DNA of 64,000 nucleotides from Nitrososphaeraceae archaeon (GTDB lineage: Archaea > Thermoproteota > Nitrososphaeria > Nitrososphaerales > Nitrososphaeraceae). Shown piece by piece: positions 2,593 through 35,145 of the stretch. The position numbers and the translations under genes are program-made. The stretch is from positions 1 to 64,000 of the forward strand of contig JAFAQB010000020.1 of assembly GCA_019246625.1 (NCBI GenBank), written 5' to 3'. The notes under the pieces were generated by a model, which ran no database searches, had not been told where the DNA came from, and saw only the letters and a program-made list of their open reading frames with translations. The stretch's first letter is position 1; each line of letters opens with the position of its first letter.

Positions 2593-3360
2593 ATGCAATT
2601 TGTTCAGATATCAGACTTGCATATAGGAGGCCTCTTTAAGGAGGATGCCTTTAATACTATTGTTGAAGAGGTCAATAGCCTAAAACCCGATGCAATAATT
2701 GTTTCAGGCGATCTGACCGATGATGGTCTGATATTTCAATTTCAAAATGCTCATAAAGAGATCAAGAGACTCAATTGTTCCAATGTAATCATCTTCCCTG
2801 GAAACCATGATTATCGTCATACAGGTTATCTGCTTTTTAAGAAGTTTTTCTCTTCAAAGCAAATTTACGAATTTGATGATATAGTATTGCTTACTGTAGG
2901 AACTGCTAGGCCTGATAGAGATGAAGGCGAGGTAGGACATAGACAGAATTTATGGATGGAAGAATCTCTAAGCAAATACGAAAATAAGACAAAGATCGTC
3001 GCAATGCATCATCATTTAATTGCTATCCCTGATACAGGATATGCTAACGTTGTTGGTATTCTTGATGCAGGAGACACTTTAAGAGCGTGTCTAGAATCTA
3101 AGGTGGACCTGGTTCTCTGTGGCCACAAACATAGACCATGGCTTTGGAATTTGGGATCTTTGAAAATCGCATATGCTGGTACGGCGTGTTCATGGCGGTA
3201 TAGAGGAATCTTCGAAAACACATACAACATTATAGACACCAAAGATGGTGAAATTAATGTTGATATAAAGATAGTAGGAGGTAAAAGGATGCCTCTCTCA
3301 AATATCGTTAAGGGATATGAATCGAAGGAAGGTCACCAATACACAAGGGTAATTGATTAA
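2593..3360 (+). CDS. Calcineurin-like metallophosphoesterase
   Basis: A 255-residue single-domain enzyme with the full dimetal phosphoesterase signature: DLH at residues 8-10, GD at 39-40, GNHD at 70-73, the histidine cluster MHHH at 138-141 and GHKH at 177-180. These residues bind two metal ions and the phosphate. The closest general class is the Icc / 3',5'-cyclic-nucleotide-phosphodiesterase-like group of class III enzymes, so a cyclic nucleotide, phosphodiester or other phosphate ester is a likely substrate. No signal peptide or membrane segment is visible, so it should be cytoplasmic. It is monocistronic; the response regulator at 3574 lies convergent to it. Substrate cannot be read from sequence. 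Confidence 0.88.
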   Translation: MQFVQISDLHIGGLFKEDAFNTIVEEVNSLKPDAIIVSGDLTDDGLIFQFQNAHKEIKRLNCSNVIIFPGNHDYRHTGYLLFKKFFSSKQIYEFDDIVLLTVGTARPDRDEGEVGHRQNLWMEESLSKYENKTKIVAMHHHLIAIPDTGYANVVGILDAGDTLRACLESKVDLVLCGHKHRPWLWNLGSLKIAYAGTACSWRYRGIFENTYNIIDTKDGEINVDIKIVGGKRMPLSNIVKGYESKEGHQYTRVID

Positions 3361-3573
3361 GGTTCTTAGCCTACCATTGCATATATTAATTACATACATA
3401 CTTGTAGTAGGATATTTTATTGGATAATGCTACAATGTGTTCATACTATATAGATATTCAGTACTTTATCACAAATTCTGTCTCAATATAGACCGCATTA
3501 TTAGACGCTGACAATATTCGGTCCGCAAGTATCTGCCGACTATATTATTATCATTATTATTATCATTAGCTTA

Positions 3574-3936
3574 TTATATTATTGCATTCACTCTTTTCAG
3601 CAGCTCTTCATTATCAATTGGTTTTTGAATAAACCGATTTTCGTCTAAATCACAAAGTATGGTTGTAGGTGTTCGAGGATATATTTCGCCTGCAGTTAGA
3701 AAACACACCTTAGCTTTGGGATTTATTTTTCTTAGTTCTCGATATAGATTAATGCCATTCATCCGAGACATTTTGATATCAAGGATTAAAAGGTCGTAGA
3801 GATTGTTATCTCTAAAATGTTCTAAAGCCAAAATCGGATCGTCAAAAGAATCGACTTCAAAGCCATAACCTTCTAAAACCTTTTTTAAAGCGAAATCTAC
3901 GTCTGGTTCATCATCGACAACTAATATTCTTTGCAT
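3574..3936 (-). CDS. Stand-alone response regulator receiver protein
   Basis: About 120 residues, just one receiver (REC) domain with no output domain. From ATG 3936 it begins MQRILVVDDEPD, giving the acidic pair DD at residues 8-9; the phosphorylatable Asp sits in LLILDIKMS (about residue 53), followed by the conserved FLTAG Thr and the IQKP Lys. A TTG at 3954 would add six residues, but the ATG gives the normal REC length. It closely resembles the regulator at 58681 (shared DEPDV, DDP.LALE, LLILDIKM and FIQKPI). No intact histidine kinase lies nearby; the only kinase-like sequence in the window is the relic at 18.7-19.3 kb. It may signal by protein contact, as CheY does. A trinucleotide-like ATT/ATC tract at 3545-3590 follows or overlaps its stop codon. 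Confidence 0.85.
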   Translation of the reverse strand: MQRILVVDDEPDVDFALKKVLEGYGFEVDSFDDPILALEHFRDNNLYDLLILDIKMSRMNGINLYRELRKINPKAKVCFLTAGEIYPRTPTTILCDLDENRFIQKPIDNEELLKRVNAII

Positions 3937-4536
3937 TTCCCATGCTCTTTTCAAAAATGTTCAAATCGTCAGTTATGGTTGTTGTACATAGATCCAAAGT
4001 TAGCATTCTTTCGTTGTAATTATAACCTCTTCCACTCAAACCCTTAATAATACCGTAAAGTACCTAATAAATGACCTTAAGTCGGCTATACAAATATTTC
4101 ATTATTTGACAATCAACTACTATCTTTTAGGAAGGGTAATTGAGGGTCTTTTGTTGTATGATAATTCTACAATCATCTATTGTTGGAGACATGTGATAGT
4201 GGTTTGTAGAGTTTGCTAGACTCCTTCGTTTTTGAATAGGATAGACATACCGTGATATGTCTAAAATGAATACGGATCAAAAATCAACACAGACTACCCA
4301 ATGGGCAAATCTTATGGCTGTAACTTCCAAAACCCAGAGACAGGTGGCGGCTTCGACACAATAGAGGCATTATTGTTAACCATTACTGACGCTTTTTTAA
4401 GAATGCATAGATATGATGTATAATAGTTTAGACATACAATGGTGAAATTGATGTTGTCTCAATTAGTAGTAATATCTAAAGCCTTGTGATTGCGCAGATA
4501 TGTGTTAAAAGGAAAAATGGGGAGAGAGGAGGAGAA
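3937..4536. other. Spacer with one weak small ORF
   Basis: No recognised gene. An open frame of 40 codons on the plus strand (ATG 4301 to TAA 4423) reads as a plausible small protein (SYGCNFQNPETGGGFDTIEA) and its frame stays open back to 4265 without another start, so it could be the tail of a decayed gene. A different frame (4257-4364) is also open. Neither has a family match I know. Confidence 0.25.
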
Positions 4537-4725
4537 ATGATCGAAGACTTCAAGAGTTTTCCGAAGAAAGGAGAATACTTCGAATGGGTGTGTGACAAAT
4601 GTAAATGGGGAGCAAGAGGATATGATAAAATGGGCATTATTGACATGAAGAAGCAGCATGACAAACTTGGCTGCAAGGAGTTTATTTCTATGATAGAATC
4701 AAGAGCCAAGAAAATAGACAACTAA
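4537..4725 (+). CDS. Small zinc-finger-like protein
   Basis: 62 residues starting at the ATG at 4537, chosen because a strong GGAGG lies about six bases upstream; the same frame is open to 4486 but has no such site. It carries CDKC at residues 19-22, then H41 and C46 (spacing H-x4-C), together a likely C-C-H-C zinc site, in an overall charged, Lys-rich protein. I do not recognise the family; it resembles the many tiny zinc proteins of soil ammonia-oxidising archaea. After the stop, a different frame stays open to 4925 without a start codon, so a frameshifted longer ancestor is possible. Confidence 0.6.
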   Translation: MIEDFKSFPKKGEYFEWVCDKCKWGARGYDKMGIIDMKKQHDKLGCKEFISMIESRAKKIDN

Positions 4726-5005
4726 ACAGTCAAAAAAACCCAGCTAATGTCGATAAGAAATATAGTGATGAAAGAGGAATAAAAAGAATTCTTGTACATA
4801 TTTCAGCGGATGAGATACTTCCTGACTTGGTCTACAGATCATCGAGTGAAACTATAAACAAAACAGGATTGTTAAAATTAGAACATCAGTCGCAGGAGGA
4901 TTTCAGAGGCGATATTAGAGATTAGTAGTAGAGATTAGATAATAGCATACTAACAAAAAGATCATGGATCAATACGATCGCCGGTAGTAACTTTATCATC
5001 ATCAC

Positions 5006-5260
5006 TTATTCGATGTTAATAGGTGCATCATAATAATCAGTTCTCAAGGACGCTATGTTACCCTCTGCATCATCCAGACATTACTCTTCCCAAACACTCT
5101 ATGTTGTTCATCTAGGAGGTTTGGGTCTCAAAGCTACGAAGAATTGTGAACCCGCACTATCTTGATCCTGCGATCTTGCCATAGACAATAGTCCAGGAGT
5201 GCTTATTTTATTAAATTCTGCTTTATATTCCATCGTTACGTACGACACAGAGAATGATAA
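5006..5260 (-). pseudogene. Decayed cyclophilin (peptidyl-prolyl isomerase) C-terminal part
   Basis: One minus-strand frame reads from YKAEFNKIS (about 5220) through TPGLLSMARSQDQDSAGSQ and FFVALRPKP, then continues through three stop codons to NIASLRTDYYDAPINIE and TAA at 5006-5008. This is the cyclophilin order: the TPG.LSMA strand, the SQFFV segment that lines the active site, the P.LD..H.VFG region (here broken by stops) and the C-terminal strand. The N-terminal half is not recognisable upstream. Stop codons replace residues of the conserved HxVFG stretch, so no functional enzyme can be made. An intact cyclophilin presumably exists elsewhere in the genome. Confidence 0.7.
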
Positions 5261-6056
5261 GAAAGATAATTGAAAAAGGCTTAGTGATGTGAAATTAGAA
5301 CCTGGTTTTTCGTAGGTTCTATTGCATGCAAAGCATTTACAAGGAGTAGAACGGCTTCTTTGGTCAAAAAGTCAGACTAGTTCTATGACAAAGGAAGAAA
5401 TTGGAATAGCAGATATTTTAACTATCGTAATAAAGGCTCTTCACTTAACGATACAGAAATAAATCTACGGCTTGAAACTGCTATCTCTTTTTATGAATAT
5501 AACAAACAGAGCATGTTCAGAATATATTGGCTAAGGTTTTCATTTTGACGTCTTTCCTTAAAGAACTCAAAGTTCTAACATACCATGGTCTTGTTTTTAT
5601 AAATATAACCCTATCAATCTGGAATAATAAATTAAGTGATACTACAAAAGCAAAAAGAAACTCGAGACGTTAACAAAAAAGGTTCAGAAATGATATGGTT
5701 ATGGGTTGCTTTCGGACTTGAGGGTAAGTCCTTGGAATTAGCATATCTAGCGAGAAATGGGGTTCCAAAGGTTTTAAACATGGAAGATATAATACAATAG
5801 TCACCATCAAAGGTTATATGAAGATATGGTATGTTTTAAAAATCGACTTAAGTATATCACCAAGCGGGGGAGAACTTATTCAAAGACATAGAGGATTATC
5901 AATATCAAATTTGAGTGAACAAGAAAGATGAATTCATCGAAATGATATCAAATGATACAAGTAAGACACGATCAGGTGCGAGGAGGAAAAGGTCGTTACA
6001 TAATGAAGGTGTGACAACTTGTGATGACGACATCATAACAGCAGATAAGATAGCAC
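5261..6056. other. Spacer with short relic-like coding pieces
   Basis: No intact gene. Short frames on the plus strand have coding-like composition but are broken: a piece ending about 5460 (KEEIGIADILTIVIK) continues after a frame change as a Thr/Glu/Leu-rich piece ending FRIYWLRFSF near 5545, and another piece (MIWLWVAFGLEGKSLELAY) lies at 5690-5800. Immediately before the DUF790 gene, the frame 5942-6079 is open and overlaps its start by 23 bases, the kind of overlap expected if a co-transcribed gene once ended here. None of the pieces matches a family I can name. Confidence 0.3.
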
Positions 6057-7946
6057 ATGCTTCCGGCTCAACTACTTAGAATCAGAATAAAAAATAACGG
6101 AAAAAACATAGCTCCAGTATTTTGTGAGTATAGCGATAGTAATAATATTTCTGAACTTCATTTAGCTACAAATATCATTGAAGAGTTTGAACAAGCATTA
6201 GAGAAGAAAGAAAAGAAAGGTGTACTTGCCGAAAGAATCTCCATTCTGGAATCTGAATATGGCCACTACAAACTTGTTAGAGGCTTGTATGCTCTTATTG
6301 AAAGAAGATGCATATTTACTAATATGAAAAATACAACAAGAATAAATAATACTGGTAACAAAGCCTCCATCACTTCTACCATCCAGCCGTTCAACATCAG
6401 AAGAGAATTATTTGAAGAATCATCACAAAGAGGGTTTGCTCTAACAGATATTGAGAAAACAAAAATAATGGAGACAGTAGCCTCAAGATTGGGGCTATCT
6501 ATACAGGATATGGCTCAAGAGATGTGGAGTGACATGGAGGACAACATGATATTGAGTCATATTTATAAGATAACTCCAGAGCAACTAATAGCGTGGTATA
6601 ACTTATCTCTAATGCAGACGCTATTATTCAACTGTACAAAGTTAGAGTTTTCTGTATCTGGAGGATCAAATTGGAAGCGAGTATTGAGAGATGTAAAGAG
6701 GCTTGGATTAATGTACAATTTACAGCAACAACAGCAGCAAAAAGAACATGGACAGACGAACGATATAAACAGCATCACAAATCTAGCACATTGTGAGGTC
6801 CCACAAGGAAACAATGCTATCATAGCTTGTTCAATAGATGGACCCTTAAGTGTTTTCAAGCTAACCGATAGATATGGAACGGCTATTGCAAAGTTACTTC
6901 CGTCAATAGTTTCTGCTGAAACGTGGTCTATTAGAGCTTGGATTGTAAGAAATACCATGTCTGCTGGAAAAAAAATATATGAATTTGAAATGTCAAATAA
7001 GGAATCACCTTTGCTACTAGATCCCTATCATAATCAAGTAAAAAATAATAACCTCCAGAGACAGGATTTTTCTAATTACGATACAAGTTCGACTAGTGGT
7101 TATTTTGACAGTAGTGTAGAAGAAAAATTTGCAAGTAAATTTGAACAATCAGCTAATGGTTGGAAGTTAATAAGAGAACCTGATCCATTAATTGTGTCTG
7201 ATGGGAAGGCACTCATCCCTGACTTTATGATTGAAAAATATGATAAAAAAATATATCTTGAGATAGTAGGGTTTTGGACTAAGGAATACCTTGAAAACAA
7301 GATACACAAGATAAAGGATGTCACAACTCAGTATAATAACAAAATCGATTTCTTTATTGCAATAAACAATGACCATTACACAGCTGCAAGCAGTATTGAC
7401 TATAGGGTAAAAGCAAGTAATTCAAACGTATTATCCACGTTTATAGATAGAACTCATTTAATATTATATAAAAATGATGACGTGCCAATTAGAGGCATAC
7501 TGGAATACTTAAAGTCCATTGAACTTGAAATAGTGGAGAAGCATGCAAGTCACAATTATAACAAATTGTTGACGGAGTTAGATCATATTATTACCAAGGG
7601 TGCCAGAAATGGTGTAATATCAATTGATGAAATAGCCAGGAAATACAATATCCCAGTTGAATCAACATTAAGAATCATCAGGTCAGAGCAAGAAAAAGTG
7701 AAGGGCAAGGGTTATAGTAATAGTAATTATATCATAACAGGCAAATATCTAATTTTAAAATCAAAGGCACAGGAATTAAATTTGCTCTTGACAGGCACAA
7801 GTAAACTTAATGATGCTTGTTTACTTCTTGAAAAAAACGATATTCCTGAATCTTGTCATATGGATCTTCTTGACAAATTGGGTTTTGACATAATATGGAA
7901 AGGTATAGATTCTAGTAATGCCACTCTTCAAAGAAAGAAATTATAA
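6057..7946 (+). CDS. bax1: DUF790 family nuclease, Bax1-like partner of XPB
   Basis: 629 residues. The N-terminus begins MLPAQLLRIRI, matching the LPs.LLRaRi start of the DUF790 family, followed by a long helical region. The C-terminal half carries a restriction-enzyme-like nuclease core around residues 385-410: E in the SVEEKFASKF helix, then PDF (about 388-390) and LEIVGFWT (about 401-408), i.e. the D...E-x-[V/I] arrangement. In archaea this family (Bax1) is a structure-specific nuclease that binds the XPB helicase in nucleotide excision repair. A Gln-rich tract (about 222-230) interrupts the middle. In many archaea the gene sits beside xpb; here the only XPB-like gene is about 49 kb away and the upstream 800 bases are relic-like. 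The family call is firm; repair role is by homology. Confidence 0.8.
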   Translation: MLPAQLLRIRIKNNGKNIAPVFCEYSDSNNISELHLATNIIEEFEQALEKKEKKGVLAERISILESEYGHYKLVRGLYALIERRCIFTNMKNTTRINNTGNKASITSTIQPFNIRRELFEESSQRGFALTDIEKTKIMETVASRLGLSIQDMAQEMWSDMEDNMILSHIYKITPEQLIAWYNLSLMQTLLFNCTKLEFSVSGGSNWKRVLRDVKRLGLMYNLQQQQQQKEHGQTNDINSITNLAHCEVPQGNNAIIACSIDGPLSVFKLTDRYGTAIAKLLPSIVSAETWSIRAWIVRNTMSAGKKIYEFEMSNKESPLLLDPYHNQVKNNNLQRQDFSNYDTSSTSGYFDSSVEEKFASKFEQSANGWKLIREPDPLIVSDGKALIPDFMIEKYDKKIYLEIVGFWTKEYLENKIHKIKDVTTQYNNKIDFFIAINNDHYTAASSIDYRVKASNSNVLSTFIDRTHLILYKNDDVPIRGILEYLKSIELEIVEKHASHNYNKLLTELDHIITKGARNGVISIDEIARKYNIPVESTLRIIRSEQEKVKGKGYSNSNYIITGKYLILKSKAQELNLLLTGTSKLNDACLLLEKNDIPESCHMDLLDKLGFDIIWKGIDSSNATLQRKKL

Positions 7947-8180
7947 GTATTACATTTTAATACAATATACAAGTAATTTGTCCGTTAAACATTTCTGCTT
8001 CCTGTGGGCCTCATATCATCTTAACTACCATTTTCCCTCAACTAGATAACTTTAGGTGATCTAGTAAATCAGCCTAGCAAATATTATTTCTAGACAAGAG
8101 TATTACCGACTCGTTTAGAATAGACTAGTTTGTAGAAGCTGTTTTTATATTTCCTATAATCATATAGATCAAAGCTATCT

Positions 8181-9512
8181 TTGCAAACTCACTATAATAT
8201 TGCGATTATTGGAGGTGGCATCCTTGGGACCTCTATAGCTTATTTCTTGTCTTCTATATGCAGTTTGAAGGTTTTGCTTATCGAGCAGGAAAAGAAGGTA
8301 GCTTTTCATACGAGCAGCAGAAACACAGGTAGGGTGCACGCCCCTTTTCTTTATGATCCAGTGAAAAAGAAACTTTTTGCAAAAGCTGCTTCTCTAGGCT
8401 ATGAGATGTGGTATAAATACTCAAACAATAAACATCTACTTTTCAAGCAGGATGGCGTATTGGAAGTTGCCACTGACGAGAGAGGCATAGACAGACTGCA
8501 AAAATATATAGAATGGGGAGAATCAAATGGTCTAAAAAAACAAATTGATCTTAAATTCTTAAAAGAAAGTGAAATAAAGAATTTTGAACCTAGCGTTCGT
8601 TGTACTGCAGCATTATATTGCTCTAAAGACGCTTCGGTCGACTATGGATCTTTAACAAGGAGCCTGTTGCAGGACTGTAAATCATTTGGATGTAGTATTT
8701 TACTAGGCTACAAAGTTCGCAAGATATCACGATCTACAAACGATGGCACTTTGACAATAGCCGCTGTGAATGACAGAGAAGAAAAAAGAATTACAACAGA
8801 ATTTATCGTTAATGCAGCTGGCGGAAACGCAATGGATATAGCTCATTCTATGCATTTAGCAAAGGAGTTTACTGATCTTCATTTTAGAGGAGAATACTGG
8901 CAGGCGCCGGTAGAATACCGCCATCTTACAAAATTGAGTATATACTCAGTGCCAAAATATCCTGAATATCCTTTTCTGGATCCCCATTGGATAATACGTA
9001 TAGATGGAAGATGCGAAGTAGGTCCAAATGCCGTCCCCGTATTTGGACCTTATGCGTATGATTGGAGTAAAAACCTAAGATACATCTTGCCAAAGATTTT
9101 TGAATCATCTAAGACAACAGGCCTCTGTAAAATTCTTTTTGACAGACAATTCTTACATCTTGTACTGGATGAATTCAAAAGCTCATTATCCAAAACTTCC
9201 ATGATAAACAGAGCTCGAGAATTTCTACCCCAGTTGAAAGCGTCCGCATTCACGGAACGAGGAACTGCAGGCATAAGATCGTTGCTACTAGACAAGGACG
9301 GTAAATTCATTCCCGATACACTAATAATTAAACAAGATAATTCTATACATATACTAAATTATAATTCTCCAGGCGCCACTGGGGCCTTACCAATGGCTGC
9401 ATCGGTTGTAAATGAATTATTTGAGGATGGAACAATATCTTTTGCAGAAAGCAAATCTCTCTGGGACATCAGGTCAGTAGCAGAAAAGATGGATATTAAA
9501 ATAAATTATTGA
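8181..9512 (+). CDS. lhgO: FAD-dependent oxidoreductase, L-2-hydroxyglutarate oxidase-like (DAO family)
   Basis: 443 residues beginning at TTG 8181 (no ATG fits; the first strand starts six residues later). The dinucleotide-binding motif IIGGGILGTSIAYFL is at residues 9-23, followed by the Glu-ending second strand LLIEQE and the SSRNTGRVHAPF segment characteristic of L-2-hydroxyglutarate oxidase/dehydrogenases. The C-terminal YNSPGATGALPMAASV closes the FAD site. The DAO fold also includes glycerol-3-phosphate dehydrogenase and amino-acid oxidases, but the SRNTG-V-HA motif and length favour the LhgO group. The usual reaction oxidises L-2-hydroxyglutarate to 2-oxoglutarate, passing electrons to O2 or quinone. 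Monocistronic, cytoplasmic or membrane-peripheral. Confidence 0.8.
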   Translation: MQTHYNIAIIGGGILGTSIAYFLSSICSLKVLLIEQEKKVAFHTSSRNTGRVHAPFLYDPVKKKLFAKAASLGYEMWYKYSNNKHLLFKQDGVLEVATDERGIDRLQKYIEWGESNGLKKQIDLKFLKESEIKNFEPSVRCTAALYCSKDASVDYGSLTRSLLQDCKSFGCSILLGYKVRKISRSTNDGTLTIAAVNDREEKRITTEFIVNAAGGNAMDIAHSMHLAKEFTDLHFRGEYWQAPVEYRHLTKLSIYSVPKYPEYPFLDPHWIIRIDGRCEVGPNAVPVFGPYAYDWSKNLRYILPKIFESSKTTGLCKILFDRQFLHLVLDEFKSSLSKTSMINRAREFLPQLKASAFTERGTAGIRSLLLDKDGKFIPDTLIIKQDNSIHILNYNSPGATGALPMAASVVNELFEDGTISFAESKSLWDIRSVAEKMDIKINY

Positions 9513-9844
9513 TTATGGACATATAGGATTTACCGTTATTTGTAAAGTTTGTGTTTAGGCTTATTAGAGACACTGCGAGCCGGCCATATTCTGAATTCCA
9601 TCCCTTTTCGCGCTCTCCGCTCGACCTGAAGCCCATTTATACTTCTAGACAATCACAATCCATTCATAACATCGAATACTCATATTGGAAAAAGATAATT
9701 CATCGTCAACTAAATACTTTATTGGTATATATGAAGCGAAGTTTAAAAAATATTATGTTGAGTTTGATCTTTTTCTATAAAAATCTCAAAGCCAGTATCC
9801 CATAAGAATGCTATAAGAAAAAGAAAAGGTTGGAGTACAAATTA
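9513..9844. other. Spacer without a supported gene
   Basis: An 84-codon open frame (9551-9805, GTG start) crosses the spacer, but it shows no family resemblance, is rich in Ser, His and Tyr in a way typical of chance translation, and has no ribosome-binding site. I leave it out as a gene. Confidence 0.4.
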
Positions 9845-9979
9845 TTATTTACTGCGTCTCGCAGCTGAGGCGATTACGTAGGCTAGACCCACTATAAGCC
9901 CAAATGCCAAAGGTATCCACACGCCAAAGCTCTGTTCACTTACATTTATCTGCTCTATTAAACTGCCAAGGAATTCCAT
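9845..9979 (-). CDS. 44-residue single-pass membrane protein
   Basis: Minus-strand ATG at 9977-9979 gives a 44-residue protein: a short amphipathic N-terminus (MEFLGSLIEQINVSEQSFG), one transmembrane helix (WIPLAFGLIVGLAYVIA) and a positively charged tail ending AARRSK, which predicts a cytoplasmic C-terminus. A GGAAAGG-like purine stretch lies just upstream of the start. The hydrophobic segment and basic tail are well formed, so I consider it a real gene. Its function is unknown; small subunits of respiratory complexes look like this, but there is no supporting neighbour. The L44e gene starts divergently about 220 bases away. Confidence 0.55.
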   Translation of the reverse strand: MEFLGSLIEQINVSEQSFGVWIPLAFGLIVGLAYVIASAARRSK

Positions 9980-10200
9980 TTCTCTATACCTTTCCAGCAG
10001 GTAGAATATAAGGTTTATATCTTGCTTTTAACCAATGACCCCCTTAATGTAGTACAATTTTTGTTATTTTCTTTTTGTTAATTCTTGCCGTGCGATTTTG
10101 TATGTGGTACAAAAAATAGATATTTTAATCTTCATTCTATGGTTATCACAACACAATTTGGCCAGTGTCCTTAAATTACCCTCATTTGGATCTTGTTATT

Positions 10201-10479
10201 ATGAAGATGCAGAAGGAGCTTCGCAAGTTCTGTTCTAGATGCAAGGTCCACACAGTCCAAGCAGTAGCAATATATAAGAAGGGCAAAGACAGAAAAGTTG
10301 CAGAAGGTGCTCGTCGACATGCAGAAGACAAGAAAGGATATGGAGGTCAAAAGTTCCCAGAACTCAAGAGAACTGCCAAGACCACAAAAAAAATTACATT
10401 ACGCTACACATGTAAAAGTTGTCAGAGAAAGACAATGAAAGAAGGTATGCGAATTCGCAAGCTTGAGATCCAATCCTAG
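10201..10479 (+). CDS. rpl44e: 50S ribosomal protein L44e
   Basis: 93 residues from ATG 10201 (MKMQKELRKFCSRCKVHT), which matches the standard start of archaeal and eukaryotic L44e; the frame is open 12 codons further upstream but that part is not conserved. Zinc ligands are CSRC near the N-terminus and CKSC near the C-terminus. The central GYGGQKFPELKRTAKTTKK stretch is diagnostic of the family. L44e sits at the E-site of the large subunit. It is followed 18 bases later by S27e, the usual archaeal gene pair, so the two are almost certainly co-transcribed. Confidence 0.96.
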   Translation: MKMQKELRKFCSRCKVHTVQAVAIYKKGKDRKVAEGARRHAEDKKGYGGQKFPELKRTAKTTKKITLRYTCKSCQRKTMKEGMRIRKLEIQS

Positions 10480-10497
10480 AGATGGTGTTTGTCTATT

Positions 10498-10695
10498 ATG
10501 CGCAAGAATACTATAGTGATTCCAAAACCACGTAGCAACTTTGTATCTGTCCAATGCATACAATGTGGAGAAAACAGAGTTATCTTTAGTCATACTACGA
10601 CTGACATTTATTGCAAATCTTGTGGCCAATTGATTGCAAAAAAGAGTGGATCCAGAGCAAATATTCTTGGAAAAATTTTAAATTCCCTTGACTAG
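10498..10695 (+). CDS. rps27e: 30S ribosomal protein S27e
   Basis: 65 residues from ATG 10498 (MRKNTIVIPKPRSNF). The zinc ribbon CIQC...CKSCG is complete, and the spacer segment ENRVIFSHTTTDIYC matches the family. A TTG at 10489 would add three residues, but the purine-rich GGTG at about 10484 is too close to it and well spaced for the ATG. Encoded directly behind L44e, as in most archaea; S27e is a small-subunit protein near the platform. The gene ends two bases from the stop of the convergent cobY. Confidence 0.93.
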   Translation: MRKNTIVIPKPRSNFVSVQCIQCGENRVIFSHTTTDIYCKSCGQLIAKKSGSRANILGKILNSLD

Positions 10696-10697
10696 GC

Positions 10698-11312
10698 TCA
10701 ACCTAGCAATCTTTCTGCGATCTCAAGTTCTTCTTTTGTATTTACGTTGACTGCTATTTCTTTTTCATTCATTATTATATAATATTCCTTTAAAGTAGCG
10801 AAACCCATGACTTTTGAAGAGTCGATTATGCTTATGCCAGTATGGCAATATTCTTTTGAATTGATATTCAGCACCAGACTTGGTTTTATTCCCAAATTTA
10901 CAACAAATTTATAATCTGATACAATAGAAACACAAGGTGATACAGCACAGTATCTGCTGAGGACTTTCTGAACGACTCTTGTGCTTAACAGTGGAAGATC
11001 GGCAGGTACCACAAAAATCGTTGCAGGTTTCAGCGTGTTGAGGACTAGGGACAAATCTTTCGAATAACTTCTACCTTCGGTTTGTATCAGATCAGTCATA
11101 AGCAACGATAAGTAACAATTAACAAATGCGTGAGTTTTCGGCGTATTGGAGCTTGTCACTCCAATTATTTTATCAAATTCATGGGACTTGGCAAGTGAAT
11201 AAAGGACAATCTCTAGCATTGTCTTTCCTTTTAACTTTAATAACGGTTTTTCCACATCAATGGAATTTTTTATCCTGCTTCCTTTACCACCACACATTAT
11301 AGCAGCGATCAT
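10698..11312 (-). CDS. cobY: Adenosylcobinamide-phosphate guanylyltransferase CobY
   Basis: 204 residues, a nucleotidyltransferase of the GT-A/MobA-like fold. The N-terminal IAAIMCGGKGSRI is the NTP-binding loop and EKPLLKLKGKTMLE the conserved follow-on Lys-Pro segment. VVPADLPLL near residue 100 is the metal-binding strand. CobY is the archaeal replacement for bacterial CobU: it transfers GMP from GTP to adenosylcobinamide phosphate, making the substrate of CobS. It is the last gene of the minus-strand cobalamin operon, separated from cobS by about 56 bases, and converges on S27e. MobA-type enzymes share the fold, but the operon context and the archaeal KTMLEIV motif favour CobY. Confidence 0.88.
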   Translation of the reverse strand: MIAAIMCGGKGSRIKNSIDVEKPLLKLKGKTMLEIVLYSLAKSHEFDKIIGVTSSNTPKTHAFVNCYLSLLMTDLIQTEGRSYSKDLSLVLNTLKPATIFVVPADLPLLSTRVVQKVLSRYCAVSPCVSIVSDYKFVVNLGIKPSLVLNINSKEYCHTGISIIDSSKVMGFATLKEYYIIMNEKEIAVNVNTKEELEIAERLLG

Positions 11313-30607: not shown

Positions 30608-31267
30608 TTGTTTACTGGTATCATAGAAGGTGTTGGCACAGTAAAGTCAATATCCAAAGTTAAAAGCAAAAACAAAGTACCAGGAGCAGACATCCAGTTG
30701 AGCATATACCTAGGGGGGCTCAAGAAGGGTTTGAAGATCGGCAATAGTGTAAGCATCGATGGCGTCTGTCTTACAATCACCAGGTTGCATAAAGGATCAG
30801 CTGATTTTCAGTTAGTGGATGAAACTGTCAAGCGTAGTTGCCTAGGTTTGATAAAGCCTGGTGATAAAGTAAATATCGAGAGAAGTTTACGATTAGGTGA
30901 TAGATTGGAAGGACATATAGTCCTCGGTCATGTAGATACAACTGGCATTATCGAACAAATCATCAATTCCCCGGGAGAGACAAAGATGTGGATAAAAATT
31001 AATGACCAAGAGATATTTCATTCAATTGTCCCTAAGGGCCCGTTAGCAGTAGACGGAATAAGTCTAACGGTCGTAGATGCAAAGGATCAAAAGATCTCTG
31101 TCGCTTTGATACCCCATACCTTATCTAACACTACATTAGGGTTAAAATCAAGAGGTGACAGAGTTAATATAGAGATAGACGTAATCGGTAGGTATGTGAC
31201 CTACCAGAAACATAGTTTGAACTCAAATTTTAGTAAACTATATAACGAATTTATGCAGGGTAAATAA
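30608..31267 (+). CDS. ribE: Riboflavin synthase, alpha (bacterial-type) subunit
   Basis: 219 residues from TTG 30608 (MFTGIIEGVGTV, the invariant start). Two lumazine-binding barrel repeats, each with the signature SVSIDGVCLT / GHIVLGHVDTTG and VDGISLTV / LIPHTLSNTTLG. It dismutates two 6,7-dimethyl-8-ribityllumazines into riboflavin. Many archaea instead use the lumazine-synthase-related RibC; here the bacterial/eukaryal type heads the operon. Four bases separate it from ribB. Confidence 0.95.
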   Translation: MFTGIIEGVGTVKSISKVKSKNKVPGADIQLSIYLGGLKKGLKIGNSVSIDGVCLTITRLHKGSADFQLVDETVKRSCLGLIKPGDKVNIERSLRLGDRLEGHIVLGHVDTTGIIEQIINSPGETKMWIKINDQEIFHSIVPKGPLAVDGISLTVVDAKDQKISVALIPHTLSNTTLGLKSRGDRVNIEIDVIGRYVTYQKHSLNSNFSKLYNEFMQGK

Positions 31268-31271
31268 TTGT

Positions 31272-31955
31272 TTGTCTGCTATCGAAGAAGCTATATCTGC
31301 ATTGCGGAGTGGTAAATTTGTCCTCATCCATGATGAAAAGAGTCGTGAAGATGAGATTGACATGGTAATTGCTGCTGAACGAGTTAGGCCATGGCATGTT
31401 GCGACGATGAGGAATGATGCTGGAGGACTACTCTGTGTGGCTGTTGCAAATGAAATAACCGTAAAACTTGGACTTGTGTATATGCAGGAAATAATGCAAA
31501 GTCTATCAAATGTGAATCCTATTTTCACAAAATTAAGTATAGGCAAATCGCCATATGGAGACAACCCATCTTTTTCGATTTCTGTCAATCATCGTGATAC
31601 ATACACTGGAATTACTGATGTCGACAGAGCATTGACAATTTCAAAAATGGCAGAAGTATTTAAAAAAATTGATTCTGGAGGAGCAGAAGAGTTCGAGAGG
31701 AATTTCAGAGCACCCGGCCATGTCCCAATTCTAATTGCCTCCAAGGGTCTTCTTCAAGAAAGAAAGGGACACACTGAGCTTTGTGTATATCTAACTCAGT
31801 TGGCAGAATTGACTCCTGTCGTGGCAATCTGTGAAATGTTAGATTCTACCACCTATCGGGCATTATCAGCAAGTAAGGCAAAAATATATTCCGATAAAGC
31901 CGCCATTCCATTACTGGAAGCAAGTCAACTAGAAAGACATGCTAGGGCGGCTTGA
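31272..31955 (+). CDS. ribB: 3,4-dihydroxy-2-butanone 4-phosphate synthase
   Basis: 227 residues from TTG 31272. The acidic loop DEKSREDEIDMVIAAE holds the metal-binding Glu/Asp residues; MRNDAGGLLCVA, SVNHRDTYTGITDVDRA and the C-terminal HTELCVYL segment are all conserved. It turns ribulose 5-phosphate into the four-carbon unit of the xylene ring. No GTP cyclohydrolase II domain is fused, consistent with the separate archaeal GTP cyclohydrolase III two genes on. Overlaps ribH by four bases. Confidence 0.95.
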   Translation: MSAIEEAISALRSGKFVLIHDEKSREDEIDMVIAAERVRPWHVATMRNDAGGLLCVAVANEITVKLGLVYMQEIMQSLSNVNPIFTKLSIGKSPYGDNPSFSISVNHRDTYTGITDVDRALTISKMAEVFKKIDSGGAEEFERNFRAPGHVPILIASKGLLQERKGHTELCVYLTQLAELTPVVAICEMLDSTTYRALSASKAKIYSDKAAIPLLEASQLERHARAA

Positions 31956-32425
31956 TATCAATAGTGAACAAAATCAAAATAGCTATAGTAGTCTCTGAAT
32001 TTAACAGAAGCGTTACATTTCAAATGCTCCATAATGCAAAGTGTCAAGCTCAAAGATTCAATGCAGACATCAGGTATGTATGTTATGTACCAGGCTCATT
32101 TGATATGCCATTAATACTCGACGAGTTGTTGAAAAAAAGGGACGTAGAGGCTGCAGTAACCTTGGGCGCAGTGATCAAAGGCGAGACAGGGCACGATCAA
32201 ATTGTGGCTGAAAATGTAGCAAGACTAACCGCAAATCTTTCATTAAAATATGGAAAGCCAATTGCACTTGGAATAACAGGTCCGAACATGACTATTGAAC
32301 AAGCAAGAGACAGGATAAGGCTCGTACCAGTGCATGCAGTAAACGCAGCAGTTAATATGGCAATTAGAATCAAAAAGCTGAAAAAAGTGAGGGGTTCAAA
32401 AGGGAAGTCGATAATAATAGATTGA
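31952..32425 (+). CDS. ribH: 6,7-dimethyl-8-ribityllumazine synthase
   Basis: 157 residues from TTG 31952, which overlaps the ribB stop (TTGA). VVSEFNRSVTF is the substrate loop, YVPGSFDMPLIL and LGAVIKGETGHDQIVAENV contain the conserved active-site His in GHDQ, and GITGPNMTIEQA follows. It condenses the DHBP-derived C4 unit with the ribityl-pyrimidine. Icosahedral or pentameric assembly is usual for the family. Overlaps the next gene by four bases (TTGA again). Confidence 0.95.
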   Translation: MISIVNKIKIAIVVSEFNRSVTFQMLHNAKCQAQRFNADIRYVCYVPGSFDMPLILDELLKKRDVEAAVTLGAVIKGETGHDQIVAENVARLTANLSLKYGKPIALGITGPNMTIEQARDRIRLVPVHAVNAAVNMAIRIKKLKKVRGSKGKSIIID

Positions 32426-33207
32426 CAATACAGATAACAATTATTAGAATTGAAGGATATGGTCCATGGACACTTACGCTTGGAAGTGATAGAGAAGGAG
32501 CTCTACAAATGCTCCAAGCAAGAATCTATTATGATGTACAACGACTATTTTCCGAAAGAGAATCCTTAGTATTTCCAAATAGATTTGATGAATATTTCGC
32601 GATAAGTAATGGTCTTTCTATTCAAGACCACATTTTAATCCAGAAGGAGCTCAAAAAGCTTTATAAGAATCTTAATCTGTCAATGGCAATTGGAAATGGA
32701 ATAACGCCATTTGAAGCTAATATAAACGCATACGATGCAAGAAGGAGAGATAAGGTTCTTGACAAAAGAACTAGGATTTTTGGGGAAGCCTCATGTTTAG
32801 CATTCTCTTGTCTAAATCCAAGTTTAATTTATGATTTTGCTCAAATAATGCATATTGACATTGATGGCTCCACAGATGTTAGTTGCAAATTATCACCTTA
32901 CGAAATTACATCACTAGTATCAAAAATCCATGCTAACCTATCGCAGGAATTTCTTAAAAAAGAGTCGATGACCTTTTTCATAGGTGGAGACAATTTCATG
33001 GTAATATCAAATGAGACAACAAAACAAGATGCACAAAAAATTATTGAGACAGTAACCAAAGGTATTGATATCAAATTAAATTGTGGTATAGGTATTGGAA
33101 GAACAGGAAGAAAAGCTGCTGAAGCGGCTACCAGAGCACTTGACACAATTAGAATGCTAAGAAATGAAGGAAAAATTCAGCCCTTCTATGAGATACAATG
33201 TCTATAG
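32422..33207 (+). CDS. arfA: GTP cyclohydrolase III (ArfA)
   Basis: 261 residues from TTG 32422. This is the archaeal enzyme with two degenerate GGDEF-like (adenylyl-cyclase palm) halves: IEGYGPWTLTLGSDREG, SIQDHILIQKEL, AIGNGITPFEANINAYDARR and FFIGGDNFMVISNE are its characteristic blocks. It opens GTP and releases pyrophosphate to give the formylamino-pyrimidine (FAPy) nucleotide, the first step of archaeal riboflavin and F420 synthesis, but leaves the formyl group in place, so another enzyme must remove it. Overlaps the amidohydrolase gene by ten bases. Confidence 0.93.
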   Translation: MTIQITIIRIEGYGPWTLTLGSDREGALQMLQARIYYDVQRLFSERESLVFPNRFDEYFAISNGLSIQDHILIQKELKKLYKNLNLSMAIGNGITPFEANINAYDARRRDKVLDKRTRIFGEASCLAFSCLNPSLIYDFAQIMHIDIDGSTDVSCKLSPYEITSLVSKIHANLSQEFLKKESMTFFIGGDNFMVISNETTKQDAQKIIETVTKGIDIKLNCGIGIGRTGRKAAEAATRALDTIRMLRNEGKIQPFYEIQCL

Positions 33208-34484
33208 TAATAAGAGATGCAAGTCTTCTGCTTGGAAAAGATTTAACTTTTGTCGATAGTGGATTTCTTGAAATTGGAGAAAATGGACTAATAAAGAAGA
33301 CTGGGCCAGGAAGATATCATAACGCAAATGATGAAAAAAATAAGAATAAGTACGATGCAGAAGGATTTCTTATTATTCCTGGATTCATAAATGCACACAC
33401 TCACATTGGAGATTCGATTGGTAAAGATATTGCAGTTGATTCTGAACTTGATATAAGAGTCCATCCTGTTCATGGAGCGAAAAGACTAATCTTGCAAAAG
33501 AGCAATCCAGAGCATCTGAAGATATTCATGAAAAGCTCTGCAATATCTATGATGAAAAAAGGTATAACTGCATTTGCAGATTTCAGAGAGGGTGGCTATA
33601 ACGGTGTTAAGCTGTTAAAGGATGCTTTGTCTGATCTGCCCATTAAATGCCTGGCACTTGGTCGTGCAGAGTATTACTTTGATCATTCTAGAAAAAAAAC
33701 AGGAAAGATTGGAAATATACAGGATCTAAAAAAAGAAGCCTGTAAAAATCTCCCAGCAGAGGCATCAGAAATGGCTGCTGATGTTTTGAGAATTTCCGAT
33801 GGATTGGGAATTAGCGGTGCGAATGAAAATACTGATGAAGCACTTAGACAATATTACAAACTATTGCAAGAGAGCAGTAAACATAACAATAAGAAATTGT
33901 TACTAGCAATTCATGCCGCAGAGTCAAAGAGTACCACTAAGTGTTCAATATCAATGACAAATAAAACAGAGGTAAAAAGGATAATGCAATATCTAAGACC
34001 TGATTTCGTAGTTCATATGGTTAATGCAACCGACAATGATATTTCTTTGGTAGCAAAAAAAAGAACTGCCATAATAGTCTGCCCTAGGTCAAACGGGATA
34101 CTTGGTGTGGGCATTCCAAAGATTGCAAGGATGTTGAAAAGCGGTTGCAATATTGGCATAGGTACTGACAATGTGATGTTGAATTCTCCAGACATTTTCA
34201 GGGAAATGGATTACCTTTGGAAAGCATCTAGGGCAACAGAACATAAATTCATTAGTGCTAAAGAGATACTAAAGATGGCAACAGTAAACGGCGCTGAAAT
34301 TCTTGGTTTGAATTCAGGTCATATTGGAGAAGGTCGCTCGGCCGATTTGATATTCATCGATAAGCAACATATTGATTTATCTCCTATCCACAACCCCTAT
34401 GCAGCTATAGTTCACAGGGCAAGCAAAGATTCAATCAGAGCCGTAATGATAAATGGAAAATTTATAGATGAGTCGCAACTCTGA
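33198..34484 (+). CDS. Amidohydrolase-superfamily enzyme of the riboflavin operon (deaminase-like)
   Basis: 428 residues. GFINAHTHIGDS supplies the HxH metal pair (about residue 69); IHAAES (about 240) supplies the third His and the catalytic Glu of the HxxE motif; HMVN (about 274) the fourth His; GIGTDNVMLNSP (about 322) the metal Asp. HxH, HAAE, H, TDN is the pattern of mononuclear deaminases (cytosine, guanine, S-adenosylhomocysteine deaminase-like) rather than of dinuclear hydrolases with carboxylated Lys. It overlaps arfA and arfC. The pathway needs both a formyl hydrolase (ArfB step) and a pyrimidine deaminase between or next to these steps; neither usual family is encoded here. A deaminase or deformylase role in riboflavin synthesis is my inference. 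Confidence 0.88.
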   Translation: MSIVIRDASLLLGKDLTFVDSGFLEIGENGLIKKTGPGRYHNANDEKNKNKYDAEGFLIIPGFINAHTHIGDSIGKDIAVDSELDIRVHPVHGAKRLILQKSNPEHLKIFMKSSAISMMKKGITAFADFREGGYNGVKLLKDALSDLPIKCLALGRAEYYFDHSRKKTGKIGNIQDLKKEACKNLPAEASEMAADVLRISDGLGISGANENTDEALRQYYKLLQESSKHNNKKLLLAIHAAESKSTTKCSISMTNKTEVKRIMQYLRPDFVVHMVNATDNDISLVAKKRTAIIVCPRSNGILGVGIPKIARMLKSGCNIGIGTDNVMLNSPDIFREMDYLWKASRATEHKFISAKEILKMATVNGAEILGLNSGHIGEGRSADLIFIDKQHIDLSPIHNPYAAIVHRASKDSIRAVMINGKFIDESQL

Positions 34485-35145
34485 TTTTCAAGTAACAATA
34501 AATGCGGCAATGACAATTGATGGCAAGATCGCAACTGCAAAAGGCGATTCAAAAATTTCATCAGATCGTGATCTGAGAAGAGTTCATAGATTACGGTCAA
34601 CTGTCGACGCCATTATTGTTGGAATCTCAACTGTCATTGCGGATAATCCTATGCTATCTGCTAGGACATCTAAAAATGAACTTGAAAATCCTGTAAGAGT
34701 CATAATTGACAGCACAGCTAGAATACCACTTAATTCAAAACTGTTGAAAAGTGCCTGTAAAATTAAGACTATAGTAGCAGTGACAAAAAGAGCACCCAAG
34801 TACAAGATTAGTAAAATTGAGAATGCAGGTGCAATAGTAATTATTGCAGGGACATCAAGTGTTGATTTGAGAGAGGTATTTTTATTTCTGAAAAGAATAG
34901 GAATTAAGAAAATTCTTGTTGAGGGTGGAGGAGAGCTGAATTGGTCTTTTTTTAGCTTAAGAATGGTAAATCAGCTAATTGTGACACTAGCACCCATTAT
35001 TGTAGGTGGTAGAAAGGCTACTACACTAATAGAAGGAGACGGATATGCCAAAATATCAAAAGCCATAAAAATGAAGTTGACAAAGATAATAAAGCATAAC
35101 AGCGGAGAGGTTGTTCTATTTTATAAAGTGGAATACTACAAATGA
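34468..35145 (+). CDS. arfC: 2,5-diamino-6-ribosylamino-4-pyrimidinone 5'-phosphate reductase (ArfC / RibD C-domain)
   Basis: 225 residues of the DHFR-like RibD C-terminal family. VTINAAMTIDGKIAT is the start, SDRDLRRVHRLRSTVDAIIVG the NADP/substrate motif, DNPMLSAR and VEGGGELNWSF the remaining conserved blocks. It reduces the ribosyl side chain to ribityl. Unlike bacterial RibD there is no fused zinc-type deaminase domain, so the deamination must be done elsewhere. It overlaps the amidohydrolase gene by 17 bases and closes the operon. Confidence 0.93.
   Translation: MSRNSDFQVTINAAMTIDGKIATAKGDSKISSDRDLRRVHRLRSTVDAIIVGISTVIADNPMLSARTSKNELENPVRVIIDSTARIPLNSKLLKSACKIKTIVAVTKRAPKYKISKIENAGAIVIIAGTSSVDLREVFLFLKRIGIKKILVEGGGELNWSFFSLRMVNQLIVTLAPIIVGGRKATTLIEGDGYAKISKAIKMKLTKIIKHNSGEVVLFYKVEYYK

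Follow-up and report, generated by a model that had tools for sequence, protein, structure and literature searches.

The new sequence analysis indicates that an amidohydrolase gene within an archaeal riboflavin operon, here called X (33198..34484, forward strand), very probably encodes the deaminase of the trunk that leads to riboflavin and F420 in archaea. The gene lies in a 64,000-nucleotide stretch of Nitrososphaeraceae DNA, hereafter the window. Profile searches, residues, predicted fold and a phylogenetic tree mark its product as a COG0402 amidohydrolase of the NF005552/PRK07213 family and as the orthologue of MJ0699, and its proposed role is that of 2,5-diamino-6-ribitylamino-4(3H)-pyrimidinone 5'-phosphate deaminase. 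We infer both the activity and the exact substrate from the gene itself, its operon, orthology, co-occurrence, the residue set and the predicted fold.

X is an ORF of 428 aa with an ATG start, overlapping the preceding ArfA gene (end 33207) by 10 bases and the following ArfC gene (start 34468) by 17 bases; the ORF call thereby confirms the coordinates and overlaps given in a first-pass annotation of this DNA. Pfam and NCBIfam searches likewise returned the order that the annotation had read, ribE-ribB-ribH-arfA-X-arfC, all on the forward strand. The operon opens, from a TTG start, with RibE, a riboflavin synthase of the bacterial Lum_binding type (30608..31267; PF00677, 143 bits; NF006767/TIGR00187 above cut-off), followed by RibB (31272..31955; PF00926; TIGR00506 above cut-off) and the lumazine synthase RibH (31952..32425; PF00885; TIGR00114 above cut-off). 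ArfA, the GTP cyclohydrolase III that yields the formylated pyrimidine nucleotide (32422..33207; PF05165 (GCH_III), 194 bits), is a homologue of the solved MJ0145 (2QV6). Downstream of X lies ArfC (34468..35145; TIGR01508, 212 bits, above cut-off), a stand-alone pyrimidine reductase that lacks a deaminase domain, with RibD matched at positions 141-333 only. X itself is an Amidohydro_1 protein whose Pfam matches are to amidohydrolase-type models only, and it scores 338 bits against NF005552/PRK07213 ('chlorohydrolase'), for which the curated cut-off is 294 bits. Neither a RibD deaminase domain nor a creatininase gene was found inside the window's riboflavin operon. X itself has no match to the RibD N-terminal deaminase in the profile search and none to PF02633, NF033501 is absent among the NCBIfam matches listed for it, and genome scans with the PF02633 and NF033501 models did not match X.

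The best-supported model is one in which GTP would be opened by ArfA and the ArfA product deformylated by a creatininase-type ArfB encoded outside the operon in the window genome, after which ArfC would carry out the reduction before X acts, an order presumed for this organism. X would then hydrolyse the 2-amino group off the isocytosine-type ring of its proposed substrate, leaving 5-amino-6-ribitylaminouracil 5'-phosphate and ammonia. By analogy with other COG0402 deaminases, H67, H69, H239 and D324 would hold one divalent metal, whose identity is presumed, and activate a water molecule, with E242, H273 and D324 shuttling protons. In this role X would replace the bacterial and fungal RibD/Rib2 deaminase, to whose fold its own is unrelated.

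The active site fits this proposal. Judged from its residues, X carries the complete mononuclear-deaminase set of the COG0402 type, and the likeness that the first-pass annotation had seen between its metal set (HxH, HAAE, H, TDN) and those of mononuclear deaminases is upheld, since the catalytic residues H67, H69, H239, E242, H273 and D324 are 100% conserved in X (n=55) as in its paralogues (n=22). These comprise the HxH metal motif with H67 and H69 (33396..33404; invariant in 55/55 X and 22/22 paralogues), the HAAE motif with metal ligand H239 and proton-shuttle glutamate E242 (33912..33923; neither residue varies in X or in the paralogues, the MJ1541 DadD among them), the catalytic H273 (34014..34016; invariant) and the catalytic D324 (100% in both sets), which is followed by a family-specific asparagine, N325, where the paralogues have glycine (34167..34172; N in 55/55 X and 0/22 paralogues). 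A second group of residues, D72, K95, E131 and N325, is invariant in X (n=55) and absent from the paralogues (n=22). Among these, the lysine K95 (33480..33482; 55/55 versus 0/22) is a candidate substrate or phosphate contact, and two family-specific arginines, R297 (34086..34088) and R407 (34416..34418), each occur in 95% of X sequences and 0/22 paralogues; a phosphate-gripping role for K95, R297 and R407 is conjectural.

The AlphaFold model of X (mean pLDDT 92) gives Foldseek matches at probability 1.00 to COG0402-type structures, which places the protein in the amidohydrolase barrel. The best matches are atrazine chlorohydrolase and the isocytosine-specific deaminase Vcz, with adenosine and guanine deaminases next. 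As the top match is a chlorohydrolase, the reaction of X cannot be read from its fold alone. Some amidohydrolases cleave phosphoesters, and X might thus be the trunk phosphatase or another accessory hydrolase. PMC8305020 counts the phosphatase (EC 3.1.3.104), too, among the pathway gaps. This assignment is nevertheless extremely unlikely, given that X has the complete mononuclear deaminase set with HxxE and H and that the solved structures closest to it in fold are for the most part triazine hydrolases and deaminases acting on bases or nucleosides.

The genomic setting of X is widely conserved. Of the 60 loci examined, two come from other families and the rest from 55 different genomes of the window's order, 3 of them represented twice. 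ArfA-X-ArfC is kept in 58 of them, including all 55 genomes of the window's order, while L036 and L056, the pair from elsewhere in the phylum, have X-ArfC without ArfA; an arrangement so regular is not chance, and the neighbourhood conservation for which the first-pass annotation had proposed to check related genomes is thus borne out. X or a relative is present in 50 of 61 relatives. In one close relative (L014, G003, 2727-3822), about 1.1 kb separate X from ArfC, and the tight overlap is broken. X also adjoins ArfA, ArfC or RibB/RibH, in varied arrangements, in Thermoproteota families outside the window's order (f34, f46, f42, f62, f45, f29, f48, f30, f31, f19, f25 and f36). The weak NF005552 matches in f25 and f36, paralogue-like at first, fall into the X clade by the A2 profile and the tree, and two of them (L266 and L269) place X beside RibH.

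X also tracks ArfA across genomes. Among 50 Thermoproteota genomes, a selection in which exceptions and controls were deliberately represented and whose members are not phylogenetically independent, ArfA occurs in 23/25 with X and 0/25 without it (Fisher p ~6e-12); G160 and G076 are two genomes with X in which no ArfA was detected. Such co-occurrence would equally be expected of an enzyme devoted to any other step of the trunk. Fourteen genomes (G106, G144, G210, G284, G108, G182, G270, G133, G145, G181, G199, G166, G211 and G261) have an ArfC-like reductase and lack X, ArfA and the RibD deaminase. Since all 14 are without GTP cyclohydrolase III, they probably do not use the ArfA/X route.

RibD itself was considered as the alternative deaminase and rejected, as only one of 299 genomes (G331) has a full RibD. 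A query with the RibD deaminase domain again gave G331 as the sole clear match among 34 genomes retested, and in the window genome no RibD deaminase was found anywhere, only the RibD reductase part, in agreement with the earlier reading that the operon has no RibD deaminase domain. G331 (L239/L256) carries a bacterial-type fusion of GTP cyclohydrolase II (RibA) with a complete RibD and has neither X nor ArfA; gene transfer is a possible source of this fusion.

The first-pass annotation had proposed that X performs either the deamination step of the pathway, which it favoured because of the Glu motif, or the deformylation step. Amidohydrolases are able to hydrolyse formamides, X closely follows ArfA, and the window's operon is without a creatininase gene, so that X could be imagined to cleave the formyl group of the ArfA product in place of ArfB. 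The distribution of creatininase-family genes, however, speaks against this. The supposed lack of a creatininase-type ArfB holds for the operon and fails for the genome, in which two full-length creatininase-family genes lie outside the operon (G000:C120:2972-3667 and G000:C159:6276-6920; L001 and L002). Both proteins, candidates for this genome's own ArfB, score below the curated ArfB cut-off. Every sampled genome of the window's order has one or more creatininase-family proteins, and small-genome relatives (family f9) mostly have one such gene.

Moreover, X and a creatininase share one riboflavin operon in three loci: RibB-RibH-ArfA-X-ArfC-creatininase-RibE in L098, RibB-RibH-ArfA-X and then ArfC-creatininase in L099, and X-ArfC-creatininase in L261. 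Like the two of the window genome, these operon creatininases fall below the curated ArfB cut-off, and both groups owe their assignment solely to context and family. L099 additionally contains two adjacent lumazine-synthase-like genes (1831-2763), the first and weaker of which may be an archaeal-type riboflavin synthase; the window has the bacterial-type RibE. M. jannaschii, in turn, encodes a true ArfB (NF033501, 342 bits) and ArfC (347 bits) alongside MJ0699. With both genes present in operons and in M. jannaschii, X as ArfB was rejected as a candidate.

Further evidence comes from clusters linked to F420. In two genomes, X-ArfC lies directly before CofG and CofH, both of which score far above cut-off (L086 of G160, 3252-10983, and L087 of G076, 4480-9328). 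GTP cyclohydrolase III (ArfA) was not detected in either genome. In G160, the gene of an MptA-type GTP cyclohydrolase is found near the cluster in divergent orientation. The substrate of CofH is 5-amino-6-ribitylaminouracil, the deaminated and dephosphorylated product of the trunk. Because CofH needs the deaminated product and ArfA is undetected, a deaminase would be useful in these genomes, whereas it is hard to see what a deformylase would do there. Taken together with the HxxE...H...D set, which is that of ring deaminases, the coexistence of X with creatininases and its persistence where ArfA is undetected make deformylation by X very unlikely and leave deamination strongly supported.

If X is the deaminase, its place in the sequence of reactions can be considered separately. 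Bacterial RibD deaminates before it reduces, and the gene order arfA-X-arfC would match a pathway in which X takes the ribosyl intermediate ahead of its reduction by ArfC. The literature nevertheless describes archaea as reducing first and deaminating afterwards (PMC13028884; Graupner 2002, cited there and in PMC8305020; PMC3403918). Deamination ahead of reduction is accordingly unlikely, and as a variant of the deaminase function its weight is already contained in the confidence given to that function.

The orthology between X and MJ0699 connects the window to the genome of M. jannaschii. The M. jannaschii genome used here holds exact copies of MJ0145 and of the solved fibrillarin 1FBN, whose gene we take to be MJ0697. 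Its X orthologue, 380 aa long, is encoded at 624694-625836 by the second ORF after that of the fibrillarin. As counting from ArfC (MJ0671) leads to the same gene to within one position, this ORF is MJ0699. It scores 589 bits against NF005552 (cut-off 294 bits), and a single copy of its family lies above the cut-off in 27/27 genomes of the M. jannaschii phylum, which also have at least one DadD-type paralogue separate from X. In a tree of 77 proteins, built by a quick method with no bootstrap, the window's X, all riboflavin-linked X and the relatives of MJ0699 form one clade of 55 rows (SH-aLRT 100), apart from the MJ1541 DadD and every other paralogue. With one clade, shared invariant residues and scores above the family cut-off on both sides, X and MJ0699 are orthologues.

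The same tree bears on whether X might be a DadD-like nucleoside deaminase or salvage enzyme that is co-transcribed with riboflavin genes by chance. COG0402 does include 5'-deoxyadenosine and S-adenosylhomocysteine deaminases, and the family model is named chlorohydrolase, but a separate DadD (MJ1541) sits in another clade, X is tied to the pathway in many families, and riboflavin genes were found near none of 12 loci of COG0402 paralogues (nine with only about 1.5 kb of flank). A salvage role is barely credible on this evidence, and a DadD-type paralogue was rejected as an identity for X by the tree and the paralogues' missing linkage.

These results also sharpen an existing prediction. Pfeiffer and Dyall-Smith 2021 count three remaining gaps in riboflavin synthesis, with candidates for two (PMC8305020). 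In the gene list given there, HVO_1235 figures as an arfB candidate, and HVO_2483 ('also predicted for MJ0699', with Rodionova et al. 2017 as the source) stands between arfC, which it follows immediately, and the phosphatase gap; this leaves HVO_2483/MJ0699 as the deaminase candidate by elimination. The first-pass annotation regarded the archaeal deaminase as unassigned; in so far as this implies that no candidate existed, it is out of date, as that list credits the MJ0699/HVO_2483 prediction to Rodionova et al. 2017. The idea is thus not new for the family, and X provides strong independent support for it. A literature search, with most subscription journals outside its reach, found no experimental test of the X/MJ0699 family. 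The prediction is supported anew by the conserved operon, the near-perfect co-occurrence with ArfA, the ArfB-type gene in the same operons and the F420-linked operons, while the competing view of X as a deformylase has become unlikely. The 'chlorohydrolase' label of NF005552/PRK07213 is misleading and would be corrected if X is the deaminase. More broadly, it is likely that much of the archaea makes riboflavin and F420 with an isocytosine-type deaminase of the amidohydrolase superfamily (K95, E131, R297, N325, R407) that is unrelated to RibD/Rib2, serves the trunk of both cofactors and is kept with ArfC next to CofG/CofH even in genomes without a detected GTP cyclohydrolase III. If so, different domains of life would carry out one reaction with two folds that are unrelated.

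Comparison with known systems places X accordingly. The N-terminal deaminase of RibD and Rib2 catalyse the same reaction as that proposed for X, yet they have the cytidine-deaminase fold, whereas X is an amidohydrolase barrel with no similarity to the RibD deaminase. ArfB (MJ0116) and BrbF, of the creatininase family, serve a neighbouring step of the same trunk but belong to a Pfam family unrelated to that of X, and X and creatininases coexist. In M. jannaschii, MJ0699 has neither arfA nor arfC as a neighbour, in contrast to X, which sits within a riboflavin operon. The 5'-deoxyadenosine deaminase DadD (MJ1541) shares COG0402 membership and an identical catalytic set, but forms a separate clade (SH-aLRT 100) and lacks K95, E131, R297, N325 and R407 of X. 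Finally, Vcz (7WW2, 8IS4) and guanine deaminases have the fold of X by Foldseek (TM ~0.77-0.79) at about 15-22% identity, and, although their substrates are free bases, they take the 2-amino group off a 2-amino-4-oxo pyrimidine-type ring, the pattern that the riboflavin intermediate shares with isocytosine and guanine.
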